Assembly: GCA_001275005.1 (NCBI GenBank)
Contig: JWZX01003328.1
Location: forward strand, 1-39,929
Length of the DNA: 39,929 nucleotides
Reading direction: 5' to 3'
From: Chrysochromulina tobinii
Lineage: Eukaryota; Haptophyta; Prymnesiales; Chrysochromulinaceae
The notes beneath the pieces are model-generated. The model did not search any database. It saw only the letters and a list, made by a program, of their open reading frames with translations, and was not told where the DNA came from. The translations under genes were made by a program, and so were the position numbers. Below, one piece after another: positions 1,661 through 35,500 of this stretch (position 1 is its first letter; each line of letters starts with the position of its first letter).

Positions 1661-2206
1661 TCAACACACCTTCTCGAGCGTGCTGAGCGCCTCGTGCTCT
1701 GCACGTGGCGCTGCGGCTGCGAGCGCGTCCAGTTCCGCCGACGACAGCCCGAGCCGGCCCAGGAGCTCACGAGGGGAGACGACCTCGCGTCCTTTGCGCA
1801 GCACGGCGCGGCACAAGCCGGCTGCCACTGGCGGCGAGTCCGCACCGGCCGCGTGGAACAGCTGCAGAAACCACATCGACCTCTCGTCGGCACCATGCAC
1901 GGTCGAGTGGATTTCGAAAGGTTGCAGCGGCTTGAGCTCCTTTCGGAAACGGGTGAAGGCTGAGGCGACGACAAAGGAAGCGCCCGACCTGCCCAAATGC
2001 GTCGCGAAGCCGGTCGCCACACCCATCTCCCATCTCGCCAGTTCGAGGTGCACGAGGTAGCTCGCGTTATTCATGTGGAGGAACTGATCGATGTCGAAGA
2101 GAGCGTTGACCCGCGCGCGGTAGATGTGCGTCGCGCCCATCTTGGAGGGCTGCAGGGCGCCGCGGAGGCAGGTGGAGAGCACCCTCGGCACATGGAGCAG
2201 CACCAT
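1661..2206 (-). CDS. THEM6-like hotdog-fold acyl-CoA thioesterase
   Basis: The protein has 181 residues from the ATG at 2206 (MVLLHVPRVL...). The frame is open upstream but contains no better ATG. The hotdog signature is clear at about residues 35-55: DIDQFLHMNNASYLVHLELA, where the buried helix after HMNNA is typical of the 4-hydroxybenzoyl-CoA thioesterase/THEM6 group. The stretch SAFTRFRKELKPLQPFEIHS also matches the family ('R.....PF'). The length fits single-domain hotdog enzymes. The expected reaction is hydrolysis of an acyl-CoA or similar thioester, but the substrate cannot be read from sequence. The N-terminus is short, basic and hydrophobic and could be an organelle-targeting leader. 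It is intronless. Family confidence is high and substrate confidence is low. Confidence 0.82.
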   Translation of the reverse strand: MVLLHVPRVLSTCLRGALQPSKMGATHIYRARVNALFDIDQFLHMNNASYLVHLELARWEMGVATGFATHLGRSGASFVVASAFTRFRKELKPLQPFEIHSTVHGADERSMWFLQLFHAAGADSPPVAAGLCRAVLRKGREVVSPRELLGRLGLSSAELDALAAAAPRAEHEALSTLEKVC

Positions 2207-2697
2207 ATTTGCCGACTGATTGAGAAGTGATCGACTTGTGGAATCCGACCGGCATGATTCCACAGAGTGCACAGACCACTGCCACACAATTGTTTCTGGA
2301 TACTACCACAGCGTCACGCAACACAAAATTGTTTCAAAGAGACGAGAGGAGACGAGGCACGAGCTCCGACGGCCACGGGCCGCAGGACACCGGATCACCA
2401 GACACCACGGCACACGTGTGCTCTGAAGCACCTCCGTCCCAGATGCTCCGTTCAATGCTCCGTCCCCAAGGCCGACTACAGACCCACGATGCAGTGACCT
2501 CATCGTAATTCCCGCTCCACCCCCTCCGCCCTCATGTGCTCCGCCTCGCGCCTCCTGCCCCCCTCGCCCCTGGCCACCTTCCGCGCTTGCGCTCCGCTCC
2601 TGCTCCCTGCGCGTGCCCCCCCTGTCCGCGCTCTCGTGCACCTCCCCCCTGACTGCACCCCAGCCACACACAGCGACCCTCATCATCAGCCCCCTGC
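2207..2697. other. Spacer upstream of thioesterase, 3' of TIR-TPR gene
   Basis: This is 491 bp with no convincing coding sequence. The plus strand of 2515-2700 is C-rich and the complementary strand reads as Gly/Arg-rich low complexity. Probable contents are the thioesterase promoter and the 3' UTR of the TPR gene. Confidence 0.35.
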
Positions 2698-5134
2698 TCA
2701 CGCCGTCCATCTCATCACGGGTGGTGCTCGACATGCCTCTTCCTCCTGTGAGAGCGCCGCCGCACACCGGCGCGTCTCAGGGTGCTCCGGCCCAAGGACG
2801 GTCCTCATGCGCTCGAGGGCCGCTTTCAGCGGGCGGAGCCCTCCGCCTGCCGCGCACTCGAGCCGGGCGTGGACGGCCTCGAGCAGCAGCGTCGTGTCCA
2901 CCGTCGGGCCCAGCGCCGCACGCGCCGTGCTGAGCACGCGTGCATCCACGAGCGCGCGGGCGCTCTCGATGCGGCCTTGCGCGCGGCGCACGTCTGCGAG
3001 CCAGGCTTGCGAGCGCAGCTGGGTGCGCTGGCCCTCTGCGAGCGTCGCGGCGCAGCCGTGGTGTGCTTCGAGGAGCAAGGTCTCGGCCTCGCCCAGCCGG
3101 CCCTGGTCGTGCAGGAGCCGCCCGAGGTTGTTAATCGAGGCGAGGGTGTCCGGATGACGATCACCGAGCGTCGCACGCTGCGCATCGAGCGCCTCGCGCA
3201 GCAGCCCGCCCGCCTCTTCGAGCTTGCCCTGGTCCTGCAGCAGCAACCCCAGATTACTAATCGAGATGAGGGTGTCCGGATGCCGATCGCCGAGCGTCGC
3301 ACGGCTCACCTCAAGGTCCTCGCGGAGCAGCACACCCGCCTCGTCGAGCTTGCCCTGATCGTGCAGCAGCCCCCCCAGTTTACTAATCGAGGTGAGGGTG
3401 TCCGGATGCCGATCGCCGAGCGTCGCACGCCTCGCCTCGAGCGCCTCGCGGTACAGCACGCCCGCCTCGTCGAGCTTGCCCTGGGCCCGCAGCAGCCCCC
3501 CCAGATTAGCAATCGAGGCGAGGGTGCGCGGATGCCGATCGCCAAGGGTCGCACGCCTCGCCTCGAGCGCCTCGCCGTACAGGACGCCCGCCTCGTCGAG
3601 CTTGCCCTGGGCCCGCAGCAGCAACCCCAGATTGTTAATCGAGGTGAGGGTGTCCGGATGCCGATCGCCGAGCGTCGCACGGCTCGCCTCGAGCGCCTCG
3701 CGGAGCAGCATGCCCGCCCCGTCCAACTTGCCCTGGGCGTACAGCAGCGTCGCCAGATTATTAATCGAGATGAGGGTGTCTGGATGCCGATCGCCGAGCG
3801 TCGCACGCCTCGCCTCAAGCGCCTCGCGGTACAGCACGCCCGCCTCGTCGAGCTTGCCCTGGTCCTGCAGTCAGCGCCCCCAGATTATTCATCGAGGCGA
3901 GGGTGTGCGGATGCCGATCGCCGAGCGTCGCACGGCTCGCCTCGAGCGCCTCGCGGAGCAGCCCGCCCGCCTCGTCGAGCTTGCCCTGGTCCTGCAGCAG
4001 CCTCCCCAGCCGATCCTGCAGCGCCGACGTTGCCCGCTCCTCGCGCGGCATGCGCGCCAGCGCCGCGCGGCCCTCGGCCGCGAGCCACTCGCGCAGCGAC
4101 GCGCACACCGTCGCCGTCACCGCACCGATGCCGCCCTCGAGCTGCGCCACCTCGGCCAGGATGTAGTCGCGGTCATCGACCATGGTGATCTGCGCGTCGG
4201 CCGCGTCGATGCCCGCCACGATGCCCGCAATCTCGCCGAAGCGCCTCGTCAGCAGCTCCGCGAAGCCGTCCACGTCCGCGGGCGCGAGCACCACATGTAG
4301 CGTCGCGCCCTTGGCGAGCGCCTTGACGAGCTCGAACAAGCACCACGCGCGCGTCATCGCGCCCGGCCCGCGGCGCATCCAGCGGGCAGGCGGCGCGCCG
4401 CGCTCGGGCAGCAAAAAGGGCTGATCAGGCGCGGGCCACTCGGCCGTGAGCGGCGAGCAGTACAGGAGGATCTCGCCGATGGCCGCCATCGCATCGGCAA
4501 AGACGTGGTCCGTGTCCTCCTTGCGCGCCGTGTGCGCCTCGCTGCCCCGAGGGTAGCGGCCGGCATCAAACTCGCCCGAGAGCAGCGTCTGCGAGGCCGC
4601 AAAGATGTCGATCCGCACGTAGCGCGTCACGCCGTCGGCGGCCTCGAGCTCGGCCAGCCTGCGCTCGATGGCGTCGAGCATGTCGCCCAGCTTCGTGCCC
4701 TCCCACGAGTACGAGAAGAAGGTGGTCGCGAGGCCGATGAGCGCGTCCGCCACTTCCCCGCGCGCCTCGGCCGTGAGCGCGAGCGTCTCGATGAGCGAGA
4801 GCCCCGTCGAGCGCGTGAGCGCGCACACGCTCCACTCGAAGCCCTCCTTCTTGATCAGGTCGCCCATCAGCATGCTGAGCGCGCCGCGCGCGCGGTAGAA
4901 GCGCCGGATGGCGCGCAGCATCTTGCGGCTGATGCCGCGACGGCCGCTCGGCAGGCGGCGCGCGTGCGGGCGCGCCGGCACGTCGAGCGTGCCCTTGGGC
5001 ACGCGCGCCGCCGCGATCGCGTCGAAGAGCGCGTCGGCGAGGGAGTCGGGATCGCTCCGGATCGATGCCTTCCGATCGACAAAGCGCAGCCCATTGCGCC
5101 GCCTCCGGATCACAGCCGACAAAGCGCAGCCCAT
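2698..5134 (-). CDS. TIR-like domain plus kinesin-light-chain-type TPR protein, frameshifted
   Basis: The gene reads from the ATG at 5134 in one frame to about 3871, and then continues in a second frame to the stop at 2698. The N-terminus is MGCALS, a good N-myristoylation signal with an adjacent palmitoylatable Cys. Residues about 138-290 look TIR-like: FFSYSW (139-144), a basic strand with RIDIFAASQ, ILLYCSPLTAEW, and RAWCLFELVKAL. The Glu in WCLFEL (residue 268) aligns with the catalytic Glu of TIR NADases, which is an inference from motif only. From about residue 375 there are about eight 42-residue TPR units with the core RATLGDRHPDTL. One extra base at 3871 breaks the frame inside the first full unit; relative to sister repeats, a T has been inserted on the plus strand. 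It may be a pseudogene, a polymorphism or an assembly error. A signalling or immune-like role is plausible but unproven. Confidence 0.7.
3082..3964 (-). repeat. 126-bp tandem repeats encoding 42-residue TPR units
   Basis: There are seven highly similar 126-bp units, about one TPR each, plus a degenerate unit at 2956-3081. Unit boundaries fall near 3838, 3712, 3586, 3460, 3334, 3208 and 3082. The core codes for REALEA-RATLGDRHPDTL-INNLG-LL-QGKLDEAG. The unit nearest the N-terminal domain is 127 bp because of an extra base at 3871. Near-identity between units indicates recent expansion or gene conversion. The repeat has no stops in several frames, which creates a long spurious open frame on the plus strand (2782-4188). 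Confidence 0.9.
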
Positions 5135-5435: not shown

Positions 5436-7252
5436 CTACGCCTTGTGGGCTCGCAGATGTGACATCGCGTGCTCCCGCAGCAGCTCGCGCAGCTCCACGG
5501 GCATCTCCGTCGACTGCCAGCACGTCACCTCGGCCGTGGCCGCGGCGAGCTCGCCTGTGGCGTCGCTCACGAGAAGCTGCAATTTCGCCAGCTGTGGGCC
5601 TAGGGCCGGGTCCTCGATCGAAGCGCCCTCGTGAGAGACGGAAGCGGAGAGACGTGCCCGGTTCAGCAGCTCCTTGAGCACGGCGGCCGCTGCTTTGGCC
5701 GCCGCTGGGCTCGGCGGCACGGCTGGCGGCGGCGGCGGCGGCGGCAGTGCAGTGCCCCCCCCAAGGAGAACCTCCGTCGGGGACGGTGCATTGGGGCTCT
5801 CGGACTCGAAATAGCCGACGCCCGCGTAGAGGGTGCCACGGGCATGTGTTGGCAGTGGTCGCAGATGGCTCGGCGAGACGCCCTCGCCCGTGCCCATTTC
5901 GCTCTCGTTCGAGTCGCTGCCCTGAGCGACCCCCGTTAGGCGCTTGAGCTCGCTCTCGCTCTCGCTGCTGCTCGAGGCATGCCTAGCGCCCTGTTGGGCG
6001 GCGAGGCGTGTGACGAAGCATCCCTTGGTACGCAGGGGCGCGTTCTTGCTCAGCCGCCACGGGTACGTGACCCAGCCGCCGCCCAGGCGCGCCGCGGCGT
6101 GGAAGCGCTTCAGGAGCGTCGGCTGATCGATCGACGTGTTCGCCGTTGCCTCGAGCACCTCGGCGAGTGTACGCCCTACAAAGGCAGGTGAGGCGCCGTG
6201 CGCGAGCAGGAGGCCGTCTGCCGTGCACACGAAGCCGTACATGCCATGTGCATGGCTGTCGGGCTGCGGGGGCTGGGCTGCCGGCGGCACCAGAGCGTAC
6301 CCGACCCCCGCATAGAACTCCTGTCCCCACTGTGTCACCTTCGAGATCCAGGCTCCCTTGTGCTGCAGCTTCTGGGTGGAATCGTTCCTCCATGCGTAAC
6401 TCACCTAATGAGGGAGGTCATCAGAGGTCATCAGAGCTGTGTGGAATCGTTCCTCCATGCGTAACTCACCTAATGAGGGAGGTCATCAGAGGTCATCAGA
6501 GCTGTGGAATCGTTCCTCCATGCGTAACTCACCCAATCGCCGCCCGCCTCGGCGGCTTGCTTGAAGCGCTCGTGCAGCGCCTCGCCGTCCACCTCATGGT
6601 TGCTCGTGAGCTCGAGCACCTCGCTCAGCGTCTTGCCGACGAACCGCTGATCGGCGCCGTGCGCTACGCACATGCCTGATTTGTAATTGAACACGAATCC
6701 GTAGAAGCCGGCGGTGCGATCGAGGCAGAACTTGACGCTCTTGCGCTCGGACTTGGGCGAACCAACTTTGGTTCCGAGGCTGTCCTCTGCCTCGGAGCCT
6801 GCGTCAGAGCTTGGCAATCCGCTGTCGAGCTCGGCTGAGGTACTGCGGCGGCGGCGGCGGCGGAGTGCCGGCTGCACGATTGGCTTCGTGGCCGGTTCGA
6901 GCGGCTTCGAGTCGACGAGCCAGCCCCACTGATGAGCCCTCGCGTCATCCAATACTCCGCGGTCGTTCTTGTGCTCGTCAGTCACTGAGAAGGATGGGCG
7001 TCTGCGAGGCGGTCTCTCTGACTCTGGTTTGATATCCTCCTCCTCCTCCTCCTCCTGCATCCATAAATGGTAAATGATGTAGGCGGCTACAGCGCCGGCG
7101 GCGACGGCGCCAGCGGCCACCGTCGCAGCTCTGCGCCACCGCGTGCTCGGTCGACTCATGAGACGCGAGAGACGTCTCCCTGACCCACACGCTAGTGTCT
7201 CTTTCGCTGCGGAATTCTTGAAAGCATTTTGGAGTGGGGGGAGTGCTTTCAT
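5436..7252 (-). CDS. Membrane-anchored protein with two sCache_2-like sensor domains
   Basis: Exons 6533-7252 and 5436-6404 (minus) give 562 residues from the ATG at 7252. Residues about 41-63 form one Ala/Val-rich transmembrane helix ending YIIYHLWM, followed by a run of Glu, a Pro/Arg/Ser-rich linker and two related modules. The first (about 180-285) has GFYGFVFNYKSG-MCVAHG-FVGKTL ... GGDWVSYAW ... WGQEFYAGVGY. The second (from about 295) has GMYGFVCTADGLLLAHG-FVGRTL ... GGGWVTYPW and is interrupted by a Ser/Glu-rich insert of about 55 residues before TLYAGVGYF. This order matches single-Cache family 2 extracellular ligand-binding domains, which are best known from bacterial receptors. No kinase, cyclase or other output domain is present. 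The intron 6405-6532 is required because both repeat copies inside it end in an in-frame TAG. The ligand is unknown. Confidence 0.72.
6405..6532 (-). repeat. Intron made of two tandem units copied from the next exon's start
   Basis: The 128-bp intron of the Cache gene consists of two units, 6470-6532 (63 bp) and 6405-6469 (65 bp). Each begins on the minus strand with GTGAGT and ends in CTCATTAG. The first 29 bases of each unit are identical to the first 29 bases of the downstream exon (6404 down to 6376). The remaining 34-36 bases are filler containing GAGGTCATCA twice (plus strand). Each unit therefore has its own donor and acceptor. Retaining either unit introduces an in-frame stop. Confidence 0.88.
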
Positions 7253-14363: not shown

Positions 14364-17300
14364 ATGACTAGCTGCTGGCGACGCTCGATGTCGACTGCCG
14401 ATATCATCGGTTCCCTCCTCGCGTCGGCGGCGGACGCTCTGCTCGACGAACCGGCGCGGCGCCATGCGCTTGGCCAAGTGAAGCTGCTGCAGGCACCACC
14501 GGAGGTCGTACGACCGGCAGTGCCTCTGTTGCTCCGCTTGCTTGAGGACCCTGCCGCTGATGTGCGCCGGATGGCGCTGGCTCTTGTGGAGGATGCAGGG
14601 CGCTCATGCCCGTCGACCATTCCCGAGCTGCTCCCGGCGCTGCTCACCAGGCTTAGCGACGAGAGTGCGCCCACGCTTAAGCGCGCCCTGGCAGCTGCGA
14701 CGTCGCTCCTCCGACCGACGCTTGTACTGCTGCTTGCTGAGAAGGATGAGGCTGCTGCCAAGGCACTCGAGCCCACCTGGGGGCACCTCCGCAAGCTGCG
14801 CGAGACAGCGGGCACGCTCCTCAACGCCGCGAGCGCCGCCGATTCGGTGCGCACTGCCGCCGTCAAGGCATGTGAGGCGCTGGTGCTCGCCTACACGGAC
14901 GAGCCTGAGGATGAGGGCACGGAGTCAGCGGAGGGGCCGCCTGGCGCCGATGTGACCAGTGGCGGCAGCGGATGGCGCCTGTCGGCGCTGCCTGCTGCAG
15001 CCGCGCTCGAGGATGGCAATGGTGCCAATCGAGGCGTACACGTGGGCGAGGGCGGCACGAGCGGCGCCGAGAGCAGCGGCAACGAAGGCGGCGGCGAAAC
15101 AGGTAGTGAGGGCGCCGCTGCTATCACGGCAAGCGAGGAGAGCAAGCTCGGCAAGCGGCCACCCCATCCGCTGCTCGAGCGCGCGGCACTCGAGGCCGAA
15201 GGCGAAGCTACCCTCACTTTGCTCGAGACGACGCTACTAGCGCCGCCCTCAGCGACAGTTCTGCTGGTGCTGCTCACGTCGATCGCGGCGCTTGCCCGGC
15301 AACGTCGGGTGCTGCTGCAACGGCTGAGCCGCACGCTCGCGGCGCTGTCGCGCGCTCTGCTCGAGCGCGCTGCCTCGCTCGCCGCGCTTCCGTCCCATCA
15401 GGTCGCCAACGCTCAGCAATCTCTACGGGCGGCGCTCCTGACTCTGCTCAAGACGACGCGCGCACGTGAGGACCGTGCTGTTGAGGAGGAGCTCGCGACG
15501 GCGCTGCGCCACCTCGGCGCGAACGAGCAGCTCAAGCATCTGTACAAGCTGATGGGCACCGAGCCCCCCCCGCTGCTCGGGGGGGGCGAGCGAGGCGCGT
15601 CCGAGAGCGCCGTATCGGGCGCCGGATCGAGCGCCGTATCGGGCGCCGTATCGAGCGCCGTATCGAGCGCCGCTGACGGCAGCGGGAGTACCAAGCGTGC
15701 CACTGCCGATGGCACCGAGGGAGGCGACAGCGCGTTCGCAGCAGGTCCGAAGCGCGTTAAGACCGAGGGGGCGCCCACGGCGGCGCTCGCGACGACGACG
15801 ACGACGAGCAGTGGAGGCAGTGCTGCCGCCTCGGCGCGCCTGGGGATGCCGCCGCGCCCGCCGCTGCTGCCCCCCGCGGAGCTCGAAGCTCTCCTCTCTC
15901 GGCTCGGGCCGCATCTCGTGGCGCAGCTCGTGATCGCCTCCATGCCGTGGCTGCCGCCGCGCCCGCCGCCGCCGCCGCCGCCGCCGGCTGGTACCGGTAC
16001 GGCGCTCGAGCGCAAGCCCATGAAGCTCAACGCTCCCATAAAGATGGACGCGGCGGCGTGCGCGTCGCTGGCGGAGGCGGCCCTGGCGAGCCTGATCGGC
16101 GACGATAGGGAAGCACAGCTCGCGGCGAGAGGGCTGGCCGAGGTGCGCGCACTCCTCCTCGGACGACGCGCGGCTGCATGCAAGTGCTCACCACGGCGCC
16201 CTCCTCTCCCCACAGGTGCGCGCACTCCTCCTCGGACGACTCGCGGCCAAGCAGCGCGCCGATGGCCCTTACTGTCACGCACTCGCTGCCCACGTGCTCG
16301 CGGCGCCAATGGAGCGCCTACCGGTGGCTCTCGCCTGGTTGCATGCAGAATTCGCCGAGCATGGGAGTGGCGCGACGGAGGTGGGCGGTGCTCAAGGCGG
16401 CGCCGCGAAAACGGGGGAGACGGCGTCGCCCAGCCGGTACGATGTGCTCGCCATGTCGCTGCTGCCGCGGCTGCGCCGTGCCCTGCCGCCCAATGCACGC
16501 GCCGCCGTCCAGGTGCTCTTGGATGTACCCAAGCTCATGTCCGAGTGGCTTTCAAAGCTCATTGAGCTCGAGGGGGAGGAGATGTGGCGACCGGGGCTCG
16601 CGGCCTACCGCGAGCTGGCGATGCAGCGCGACGCGCTCGGGCCGGCGTGCCTGCGCGCGCTGCTTCAAGTGGCGACCTCGGCTGGGGAGTCGGCTGGGGA
16701 GGCTGAGAGGCGCGCACACGCGGTCAAGATCGTGACGGCTCAGCTGCTCCCTTTACCTCGCTTCGCTTCGTTGATTGGCGGCTTTGCCGAGGCGCAGCTG
16801 CGCCGCCTCGTGGGCGCGTCCACCACCGCCCATCCGACGGCCAGCTGCGTCGGCGACGGGATGGACGTGTCATCGGACGGCGAGATGGCCGAAGACTCGT
16901 GGGCCATCAAGAGCCATCAGGAGGGCGAGGAGAACGAGGACATCCTCACGGCGCATGTGCAGCTCTACCTCGCAGTGGTTGCCAAGGAGCCCGCACGGCT
17001 GTGGCCTCTGCTCGCGCACTTTGGCGGCGCCTCGGCCGGCGCGCAGGCGGTGCTGGTGCGGAACGCGCCCCTGCTCGTGCCGCACATCGACCCCGTCGAG
17101 TTGGCGTCCCTCCTTGTGAGAGCGATGCGTGAGATACGGCCCCTTGACCCTAGTGCGCCGCTGATCCTCGCTCTACTCACGGCCGTGGCCGCCGGCTCGC
17201 CTACCGGTTCGCCGCCCGCACCGCCTGCACCGCCCGCGGCGCTCGTCGAGGGCACGCTTGAGCTCTGCTGCACCGAGCTGCGCGATGGCCGGTATGCAGT

Positions 17301-32579: not shown

Positions 32580-35500
32580 CTATTTTGTGTCTGATTTTTC
32601 TCGAACTGCTGTGACGGCCCGCTGGTTGTCGCGTGCGACGAGCTGCTCGTAGTAGACGCGCACGCCTTCAAGGTTGGCCGGGTCCGCCTCGTACTCGATC
32701 GCCTTCTTGAGCCGAATAAAGAGCCACTCAGCCATCGAGTTGGAGGTGATGCGCTCATACGCGGTGTTGAAGATGGCGATGAGCAGGTTGAGGAGCACAA
32801 AGTACGAGGTGACGATGAAGGACCAAAAGAGTGCGGAGGCTCCCAGCTGCACGCTGGGCGAGAGTGGCTCAATCATATCGAGGCTGGCGCCGCCGGCGAG
32901 CCACAGGCACATCTGGGACACGATGGACATGTAAGAGTAGTCGAAGGAAAGGCCTTGGGAGAGCGACGCGAGGTACTCGGACGAGACGCCAAAGTGGATG
33001 AGCGAGTAGAAGCCGTTGGCAAAGCCCACGAGCACGATGCCGAGCACAACCGCGAAGCGCACCGAGTCCGAGAGCATCTGGGTGACAGTGATCAACAGCG
33101 GGCCGAGCACCTTGAAGATAGCGACCAAGTTGAGGATCGAGAGGGCGAGGGTCACTTGCAGCGCGCCATCGAACAGCGCGAGGACCTCGGACAAGGACTG
33201 CACGAGGTCATTGTTATTCTCAAGGTCCACGGACGTGGCTACGCGCCACGCGGTCACGACGGGCACGAAGGCGAGGGAGTACAGGTCGAGTGCCTCGAAG
33301 AAGTTGAGGGATGCGGGTTTTGAGCGCAGACGGCGCAGCTGGTCATTGCCGAAGAGGGCCCAAGAAACCGCCGAGGCGCTAGTGGCCGCGTAGAAGAGGG
33401 GCGTCCCCGGCTCGCCCACGCTCGCGACGAAGACGGAGAACGCCATGGCGGAAAAGATGCCAAAGCGGTTTCGGTAGCGCTCGCCCGCGAAGGTGGACCA
33501 TTTACGCTCGAGTAAGTCGAGCATCAGAGGAGTCTCGAGGAGCTCTTTGCGCTCATGGCGCAAGATGAGCTCCTCGATGGTCACAGGCTGCCCCTTGCCA
33601 TCACGCAAGACGAGCGGCTTAAGCGGCTTGAGCAGTTTCGAGTCGGGCGCGGTTTCGAGTCGTTTCGAGTCGGGCGAGTCCGCCGCTGGCACGCCCTCGC
33701 CGAGCACGCCCGTGCCTTCCTCGGCGCGCGAGGGCGGAGCACTCTGGTCTTCGCTGAGCGGCAGCACGATCCCCCCGAACGAGTACCAGTACAGGTCGTT
33801 GCCCCACCATCGATACTCGAATCGGCTTTTGGCGTTCAGGAGCTCAAGCGCGAGCTCAGGCATCGTCTCGATCGCCATCGAGAGCGGCGAGCGGCCGCCC
33901 TTGTTGATCGCGAAGCCGTCGACGCCCACGCCCAGCAGGAACCGGGCCGCTCCGATGTCACGCGAGGACTCGAGCAGCGTGTGGAGCGGATTGGAGAGCT
34001 CGGCATCCACCTGATGAGGGGGCCCATCAAGAGCAATCAGTGGCAATCGGTGGCACTCAGCGGATGGGAGAGCTCGGCGGAAGGTATACCTCGCGGAAGA
34101 CCGAGGGTGGCAGGTGCTCACGCAGGTACTGGAGCACCTCGAGCTGACCGTTGAACGCGGCCGCATGCACAAGTGAGAAGAGTGGCGCGTCCTGCAGCAG
34201 CCACTCGAGACGTTGGCGCAGGTTGCACCCCGCCTGTCGGAGCATCTCGAGAGCCACCACGTCGCCCTCGAAGCATGCGTGCACTGCCGGCCCTCCCCAA
34301 TAAGTGGGCGGGAAGTTCGGGTCGGCGCAGCCGGAGGCGAGCACGTCTTTCAGGAGCTCGAGGCGCTCTGCCTCGGACACCCCAACCATCGAGCGTCGGA
34401 AGTTGCCCTCGTCGGGTCGCACTAGCAGGCAGAGCGGCGTGCGGCACCACCCTTCGAGCTGCCGCTCACCCGTCGAGCTGTTCAGCATCGCGGGCGGGTA
34501 GACAAAGTTCCAGTCGATCTCGGTGAGCGCGCGGATGGTGTTGAGGTCACCCGTCTTGATCGCATCGAGGAGCAACACCCGCTCCGCTGTCAGGTAGTCG
34601 TTGAGCTCGATCTCATTGCCATACTTCGTCTTGAAGCGGCGGTAAAGATCATCTTGCACGCGCAGCACGTCTACCGCGTCGTCGCCGAAGCCGCGCGACA
34701 GCGAGCCCTGGATGCGGCTCTCGATGACCCCGAGCCTCGCGGCATCCCTCTCGGCGGTGCTGTCAGACCTCCTAGAGCCGCTGTTGGAGGTGGAGGCTGC
34801 CGCCGCGAGCTGTTGGCGCACGTCGCTGTCGAGCAGCCGCATGTACTCAGCAGCCTGCATGTTGGCCACATTGGCGCGATTGGCGGCCTCGTCATAGGTG
34901 CTAAGCCGATCCGAGGCAGCCAAGAGCGCACGCTCGTACTGCAGCGAGTTCCAGATCAGGTCCGTCGCCATCTTGGAGAACTCGTCGAATGAGAGCCTCC
35001 CATCGCCGTTCCTATCGTACTGGTTCAAACGACGCTTGAGGTCTTTCGAGCCGCGAGTGAGCGAGGTAATGCCCACCTGCTCGAAGGCGATGTGCAGCTC
35101 GTTGGGGCCCAGGAATCCGTCGCGCGGCAGCGAGTCGAGCTTGTCGAACAGATCCCGCCACAACACCACCCGCCGTCGCTTGCGTAGCCAGTCGCGGGCG
35201 ACCGCGGTGATGCGCACGCCCGTCTTCGCGTACGCGTTCGCATTCCAGGGGGTCTTGAGCGTGCGCATGAGCACGCTGAACTCATCGAAGTTGAGAACGC
35301 CGTCCTCGTCTACATCGACCTCTCTTATCAGGGTCTTCAGATCGTCGGCAGGTGGGATATCCAGTTCGAGCCGCTTCAGCACCACAAGCAGCTCACGCAG
35401 GTCGATATTTCCATCGCCGTTGATGTCACACTCGTCGAAGCAGCGCTTCCATAGGCGGGCGGACGAGTCCTCGAAGAAGTCGAGCAGGCTCCCGCGTATG

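Follow-up and report, generated by a model that had tools for sequence, protein, structure and literature searches.

The window analysed here is a stretch of 39,929 nucleotides from the haptophyte Chrysochromulina tobinii (contig JWZX01003328.1), and it contains a gene for a double-Cache protein that is interrupted, on the minus strand, by a predicted intron of 128 bp (6405-6532). This intron is probably the product of a recent introner-like insertion, in which a filler cassette without a donor site of its own entered a coding exon, gave rise to a long target duplication, and was later duplicated together with the exon copy as a unit. The reading draws on the anatomy of the insert, the dispersal of its filler, the duplication of exon sequence beside it, the preservation of coding phase, and variation among homologues. 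Introns of this kind, whose first part is a copy of the following exon, are called exon-copy introns below, and we judge them to be a new form of introner-driven intron gain.

Anatomy of the double-Cache intron

The insert is built of two head-to-tail units, each composed of a copy of the start of the downstream exon followed by a filler. Its parts are as follows.

6405-6532, minus strand: predicted intron, 128 bp, two head-to-tail units (65 + 63 bp); four forms translated
6376-6404, minus strand: start of the downstream exon, 29 bases, presumed original target, coding VSYAWRNDS(T); conserved among homologous proteins
6405-6440, minus strand: filler of unit 2, 36 nt, ACAGCTCTGATGACCTCTGATGACCTCCCTCATTAG, with CTGAT-containing decamers and the acceptor TAG; dispersed in the genome
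6441-6469, minus strand: exon-start copy of unit 2, 29/29 identical, opening GTGAGT; from sequence comparison
6470-6503, minus strand: filler of unit 1, 34 nt, equal to the unit 2 filler minus its first AC; from sequence comparison
6504-6532, minus strand: exon-start copy of unit 1, 29/29 identical, giving the predicted donor GTGAGT of the whole intron; from sequence comparison

The 29-mer GTGAGTTACGCATGGAGGAACGATTCCAC, read in the minus-strand sense, is present in three identical copies (6504-6532, 6441-6469 and 6376-6404), and Tandem Repeats Finder assigns the array a score of 304. Both fillers end in CATTAG, that of unit 2 having an extra AC at its start. The original prediction had described an intron of 63 and 65 bp units, three identical copies of the exon start of which the two intronic ones open with GTGAGT, and fillers of 34-36 bases ending CATTAG; the sequence agrees in each respect. 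It had also regarded each unit as a potential intron and proposed a second round of tandem duplication. The units are indeed adjacent, each with its own donor and acceptor, and unit 2 repeats unit 1, filler included.

Translation of the four forms indicates what splicing would have to achieve. With both units removed, a single open frame of 531 codons from ATG is obtained, and its product matches Pfam dCache_2 (E 1.5e-10). If either or both units are kept, a stop stands in frame, namely the terminal TAG of unit 1 itself or a TGA in unit 2, so the full protein needs both units out, as had been foreseen. We infer that 6405-6532 is a spliced intron from which both units are removed.

The origin first suggested for this intron is not supported. 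It had been attributed to duplication of an exon segment containing AG|GT, and such simple tandem duplication (the Rogers/Hellsten model) would account for exon copies flanking the new intron and for the tandem array in the window. However, the exon upstream of the insert ends in GATTGG, so that the donor context is GG|GT, no AG|GT is present in the exon, and the acceptor AG comes from the filler. While the model derives donor and acceptor alike from the duplicated exon, here the branch-point and acceptor part is a copy of a dispersed filler, and the same anatomy recurs with two different fillers. We consider this origin very improbable.

Dispersal of the first filler and copies of the following exon

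The assembly from which the window derives (53,154,812 bases in 2253 contigs) was searched for the filler. A DNA query of 261 bases around the double-Cache insert gave at least 37 matches, one of them the window itself; the other 36 all overlap the filler stretches of the query, and eight of these loci were inspected. Short motifs are likewise abundant: CCTCATYAGGT is found at 2175 sites against 16 for the reversed control, CTGATGACCTCTGATGACCT at 1624 (overlapping matches counted) against 1, and the filler end CTCCCTCATYAG at 1895 against 8. The dinucleotide following the latter (n=1895) is GT at 1255 sites, GC at 273, GA at 78 and something else at 289. Within the first-filler decamer CTGATGACCT stands CTGAT, in agreement with the general consensus for branch points.

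Copies of the following exon were then sought at 97 non-redundant sites (loci L001-L088 and the window) with CCTCATYAG before GT or GC and enough flanking sequence. Because 50 of the 88 loci were picked by a GT-containing pattern, no conclusion is drawn from how often GT occurs among these sites, and the genome-wide counts are to be used instead. An upstream copy of the following exon, at a score of at least 10, is present at 55 of the 97 sites, the units of tandem arrays being treated singly, compared with 1 of 485 exon-swapped controls; at a score of at least 9 the figure is 60/110. When 49 sites with a second acceptor within 150 bp are removed, the copy is detected in 23 of 47 strict single units and in none of 235 swapped controls, with a length of 11-35 bp (median 19). 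In most single units the match runs just 0-4 bases further upstream, the left edge coinciding with the predicted splice site and the right edge varying, although flushness on the acceptor side is built into a search anchored at the acceptor and to that extent weighs against our interpretation.

Fillers are more alike within contigs than between them, with 12% versus 3.1% of pairs at 20/22 identity or higher (175 within-contig pairs from 99 introns, including local arrays contributed by certain contigs, C40 among them; the mean is reached in 25 of 1000 label permutations). This may point to local spread. By eye, the first filler, CTGATGA...TCATCAG, offers a 7-base candidate for a terminal inverted repeat.

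A second filler with the same anatomy

A further predicted intron of the window, in a symplekin-like gene, carries a filler that appears unrelated to the first one by eye.

16143-16215, plus strand: predicted intron with a 32-bp exon copy (31/32) and a 41-nt filler, TGCATGCAAGTGCTCACCACGGCGCC...CCCCACAG; second filler

Removal of 16143-16215 joins a frame of 1165 codons. The homologue P0147 carries PF11935 and PF12295, which we take to be symplekin domains. The second filler consists of TGCATGCAAGTGCTCACCACGGCGCC, a pyrimidine-rich stretch and CCCCACAG, and no terminal inverted repeat was seen in it by eye. Its exact 25-base core occurs at 327 places in the assembly (control 0) and sits near the filler start in the copies examined.

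The sample for this filler comprises 40 small regions from the first 100 of the 327 places, together with copies in first-filler loci. After exclusion of multi-unit loci (18 sites dropped), 33 of 49 strict single units have a duplication at a score of at least 15, of 18-46 bp (median 29), as against 0 of 245 swapped controls. For both fillers the lower ends of the lengths are set by the score thresholds. An AG lies at most 4 nt from the left edge of the duplication in 27 of these 33 units, in a search that was not anchored at AG, and is followed by GT in 21 cases, GC in 2, GG in 2, GA in 1 and AG in 1. A looser count that included the multi-unit loci L025, L097, L109 and L127 (37/53 versus 3/265, lengths 18-55) is superseded by the strict one. 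At a score of 9 the copy is found at 59 of 69 sites, but this threshold is weak because controls reach it too (43/265, and 15/245 in the strict set).

Coding phase and orientation

Among 77 introns with a clear copy, 54 were dropped for short flanks or for a second motif in the flank, leaving 23 in which the reading frame could be tested, with coding phase predicted from the open frame and from GC at third positions. Predicted phase is kept after splicing in 17 of the 23, where one third would be expected (p 8e-5). Among the first 100 of the 1255 CTCCCTCATYAG-GT sites, a spacing of 150-1500 bp separates 27 neighbouring pairs, and in every one of them both sites share a strand.

These results correspond to what is expected of introners, that is, similar introns at many unrelated genic positions: exact cores number 1895 and 327 for the two fillers, the exon starts differ among the sampled loci, and phase is kept in the proportion just given. 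Frame and splice motifs would also fit removal by the spliceosome with the mRNA left intact.

Unit number and comparison with homologues

The first 100 of the 1255 sites represent 87 loci, of which 10 have two or three acceptor sites 30-150 bp apart, with unit lengths such as 70+70, 77+77 and 73+73. In the four pairs of neighbouring units measured, similarity across exon copy plus filler is 0.80-0.97, a likeness that fits duplication of whole units through direct repeats better than it fits repeated independent insertion. L007 is an exception, as its middle copy differs.

A search with the spliced double-Cache protein returned 26 proteins, and the best 10 of the 26 were aligned. Intron-less forms, which the check proposed with the original prediction was to look for in orthologous loci, are found here at the protein level: P0123-P0130 and P0121, the last with 93% over the region searched, continue across the site with no insert. 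The longest contig of P0127 measures 148 kb, which makes a genomic, intron-free double-Cache site in its source likely. P0122 starts at the first codon of the downstream exon, as expected after an intron ending in TAG.

For the symplekin-like protein, 10 proteins were found, of which P0150 is that of the window itself and P0148 is without the region concerned. At the 16143 site, P0147 (87%; its longest contig measures 17.9 kb) and P0149 (54%) continue without a unit; P0151, P0152, P0153, P0155 and P0156 have one unit and then the exon; and P0154 has two successive translated units, VRALLLGRLAAACKCSPRRPHLSPQ followed by VRALLLGRRAAACKCSPRRPPLP. The predicted proteins thereby imply forms with 0, 1 and 2 units at a single site. 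In two genes, then, the insertion is absent from close relatives at the protein level, as a recent insertion would be, and the recent appearance that the double-Cache intron had been credited with is supported.

The same records bear on whether the arrays could be assembly artefacts or unspliced, decaying coding minisatellites. Tandem repeats are prone to assembly error, and splicing is here a prediction from sequence. Against this, the two double-Cache units differ by the extra AC, P0122, on a 17.6-kb contig, has the same exon boundary, and at the 16143 site other records have one unit or two. The anatomy is also found at many loci, and most testable introns keep phase. Either of these is hardly credible as the explanation.

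P0148 (labelled Chrysochromulina, JGI Chrpa1, EukProt) is, by eye, near-identical to the symplekin-like protein of the window outside the missing stretches, and its public gene model skips the intron-bearing stretch of the gene. Automated annotation may miss introns of the exon-copy type. The published C. tobin genome is described as 59 Mb in size, with 63.4% GC and a mean of one intron per gene (PMC4580454).

Proposed mechanism

The process that we favour would begin with a short non-coding cassette possessing decamers that resemble the branch-point consensus and a CATYAG acceptor, but no donor. This cassette would enter a coding exon at a staggered break, and fill-in of the stagger would duplicate about 29 exon bases on both sides. 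The intron would then open with the upstream exon copy, which provides the donor, and continue with the cassette, and the downstream copy would stay as exon. The GT at the start of the duplicated segment would have allowed the upstream copy to become a donor, and because the downstream copy is kept as exon, splicing would restore the original protein. The long direct repeats would in turn allow unequal exchange or slippage, by which exon copy and filler could be doubled together. Exchange of this kind could also remove a unit and so bring back an intronless allele without a scar.

The same anatomy is present at many loci with at least two unrelated fillers, and the length of the duplication is variable, about 15-46 bp overall in single units. 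Variable length argues for insertion of a target-primed or break-repair type rather than by a transposase with a fixed stagger, although decay of old copies also shortens apparent duplications. Insertion of the DNA-transposon type would leave a fixed, short target duplication of 3-9 bp, and the lengths found are 18-46 bp for the second filler (score at least 15) and 11-35 bp for the first (score at least 10). Target-primed insertion of the long interspersed nuclear element (LINE) type leaves duplications of variable length, as are found here.

Repair without any mobile element deserves consideration in this context, and we regard it as possible but rather unlikely. In this scenario, template switching would copy the exon start, capture a filler from another intron and jump back, so that introns seed nearby introns. 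The broad spread of duplication lengths, the variable 5' limit of the first filler, and the sharing of one anatomy by at least two unrelated fillers and a few mixed or other ones are all in keeping with it. The greater likeness of fillers within contigs points the same way and would also fit local copying during repair. The exact 25-base core of the second filler, in contrast, recurs at 327 places near the filler start, as expected of a defined element. Additionally, in L122, the single case examined, the extra bases that precede the second filler gave no sign of a donor tail; sought genome-wide, they were found only in L122.

Several further points weigh against an introner-like insertion. 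At the thresholds used, 24 of the 47 first-filler single units and 16 of the 49 second-filler ones lack an exon copy, and 6 of the 33 second-filler duplications have no AG within 4 nt of the left edge. Sites of either filler without a copy are suggested to be old, diverged or of other origin. Splicing and the choice of junctions are predictions. The ENA contig behind P0121 is 3.5 kb long, and this record may represent a spliced transcript rather than an intronless allele; more generally, the alleles were observed as predicted proteins. Moreover, no mobilising enzyme has been identified, and no search for one, or for a cognate reverse transcriptase or endonuclease, was made.

A viral carrier was considered. 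Two scans of viral contigs gave a single contig, L130, that has the second core, situated at its extreme end, and eight further viral contigs with a 16-base match, in which the exon-copy anatomy is absent by eye. L130 is an IMG/VR contig with phage-like frames by eye; at 4495-4554 it ends in the second core followed by CCACAG and GTGAG, and it is perhaps a chimeric assembly.

Comparison with known systems

Introners that carry a 3' splice site and recruit the donor from the target site duplication have been described (Gozashti et al. 2022, PMC9860276). In that account, such duplications measure 3-9 bp in earlier introner families and 4 bp in an example from Chrysochromulina sp., which brings a 5' splice site of its own and recruits the 3' one, the opposite of the arrangement in the fillers reported here. 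That paper also records rare GC and GA donors; in the present genome GC or GA follows the acceptor at some sites. In the present introns, however, the duplication is about 15-46 bp long and variable, occupies between about one fifth and one half of the intron, and multiplies together with the filler to form tandem units.

The origin of introns by tandem duplication of exon sequence, including the work of Hellsten et al. 2011 and 24-bp exon repeats in fission yeast, is treated in PMC4974935. As in the present case, exon copies make the intron, the mRNA is unchanged and more than two copies are possible; the difference is that here the acceptor and branch region come from a dispersed filler and not from the duplicated exon. 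Near the borders of 213 introns from diverse taxa, Rogers and Bendich 2025 (PMC11782384) reported direct repeats of 4-30 bp (mean 11.4), likewise reading repeats at both borders as insertion scars. Those described here exceed such lengths in many cases, are nearly identical in a large number of copies, and go with particular filler families.

The introner elements of Amoebophrya, a parasitic dinoflagellate, are also repeated introns with direct repeats in a marine protist, but theirs are direct repeats of 3-5 nt with inverted repeats of 8-20 nt and non-canonical splice sites (PMC7789003), whereas in exon-copy introns the direct repeats are long and the predicted donor is mostly GT. The stwintrons of Hypoxylaceae resemble the double-Cache intron as composite, proliferating introns removable in more than one step (PMC8469720). 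They are nested, the inner intron splitting a splice element, and the abstract of that paper reports no flanking duplications. A nested stwintron was rejected for the present intron, the units of which lie side by side, each with its own donor and acceptor, with no internal intron that splits a splice element. No report of introner families with such long, variable duplications, or of tandem unit growth in them, was found among the matches listed in searches of the open-access literature (supplements excluded).

Other exon-copy introns and further observations

The window contains one more predicted intron with the first filler.

34011-34089, minus strand: predicted intron, 79 bp, with the first filler type; exon-start copy diverged; its removal joins a frame of 1044 codons

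This intron looks older, and its host gene codes for EF-hand-like and channel-like stretches by eye. Elsewhere in the assembly, L035 (about 2179-2270, plus strand) has the exon-copy anatomy with a mixed filler that includes TGCATGC and CTGATG pieces and ends in CTAACTAG. Two sites of L015 (527 and 1679, minus strand) present the anatomy with still further fillers, one consisting of AATGACCTCT decamers ending in AATGACCAG and the other ending in GAGCTTGGCAG. At L036 (about 2475-2609, plus strand) what is duplicated seems to be the upstream exon's end, 27 bp long and thus a multiple of three; a small in-frame exon could have been gained there instead of an intron.

Two observations concern other parts of the window. 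At positions 3086-4009 a 126-bp sequence is repeated in tandem about seven times; it codes on the minus strand (ALGDRHPDTL...) and looks by eye like a tetratricopeptide repeat (TPR) of the kinesin-light-chain type. The nearest named matches of another gene of the window are from other haptophytes.

Significance

The birth and loss of introns is a long-standing question for which few recent, readable cases are available. In the genome considered here, many candidate introns still bear the mark of how they arose, with a copy of the next exon as their first part, and they indicate how an element without a donor could still yield a working intron. The implied alleles with 0, 1 and 2 units at one site constitute a natural series for measuring intron birth, tandem growth and scarless loss. 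Beyond the single intron, we tentatively entertain, at a little less than even confidence, that this haptophyte possesses a process that has gone unrecognised, in which staggered insertion with duplications of about 15-46 bp, served by several unrelated acceptor cassettes, would create minisatellite-like introns whose unit number shifts between 0, 1 and more as the duplicated exon starts recombine with one another. As the protein would remain unaltered, intron gain and loss in this alga may be both precise and frequent.
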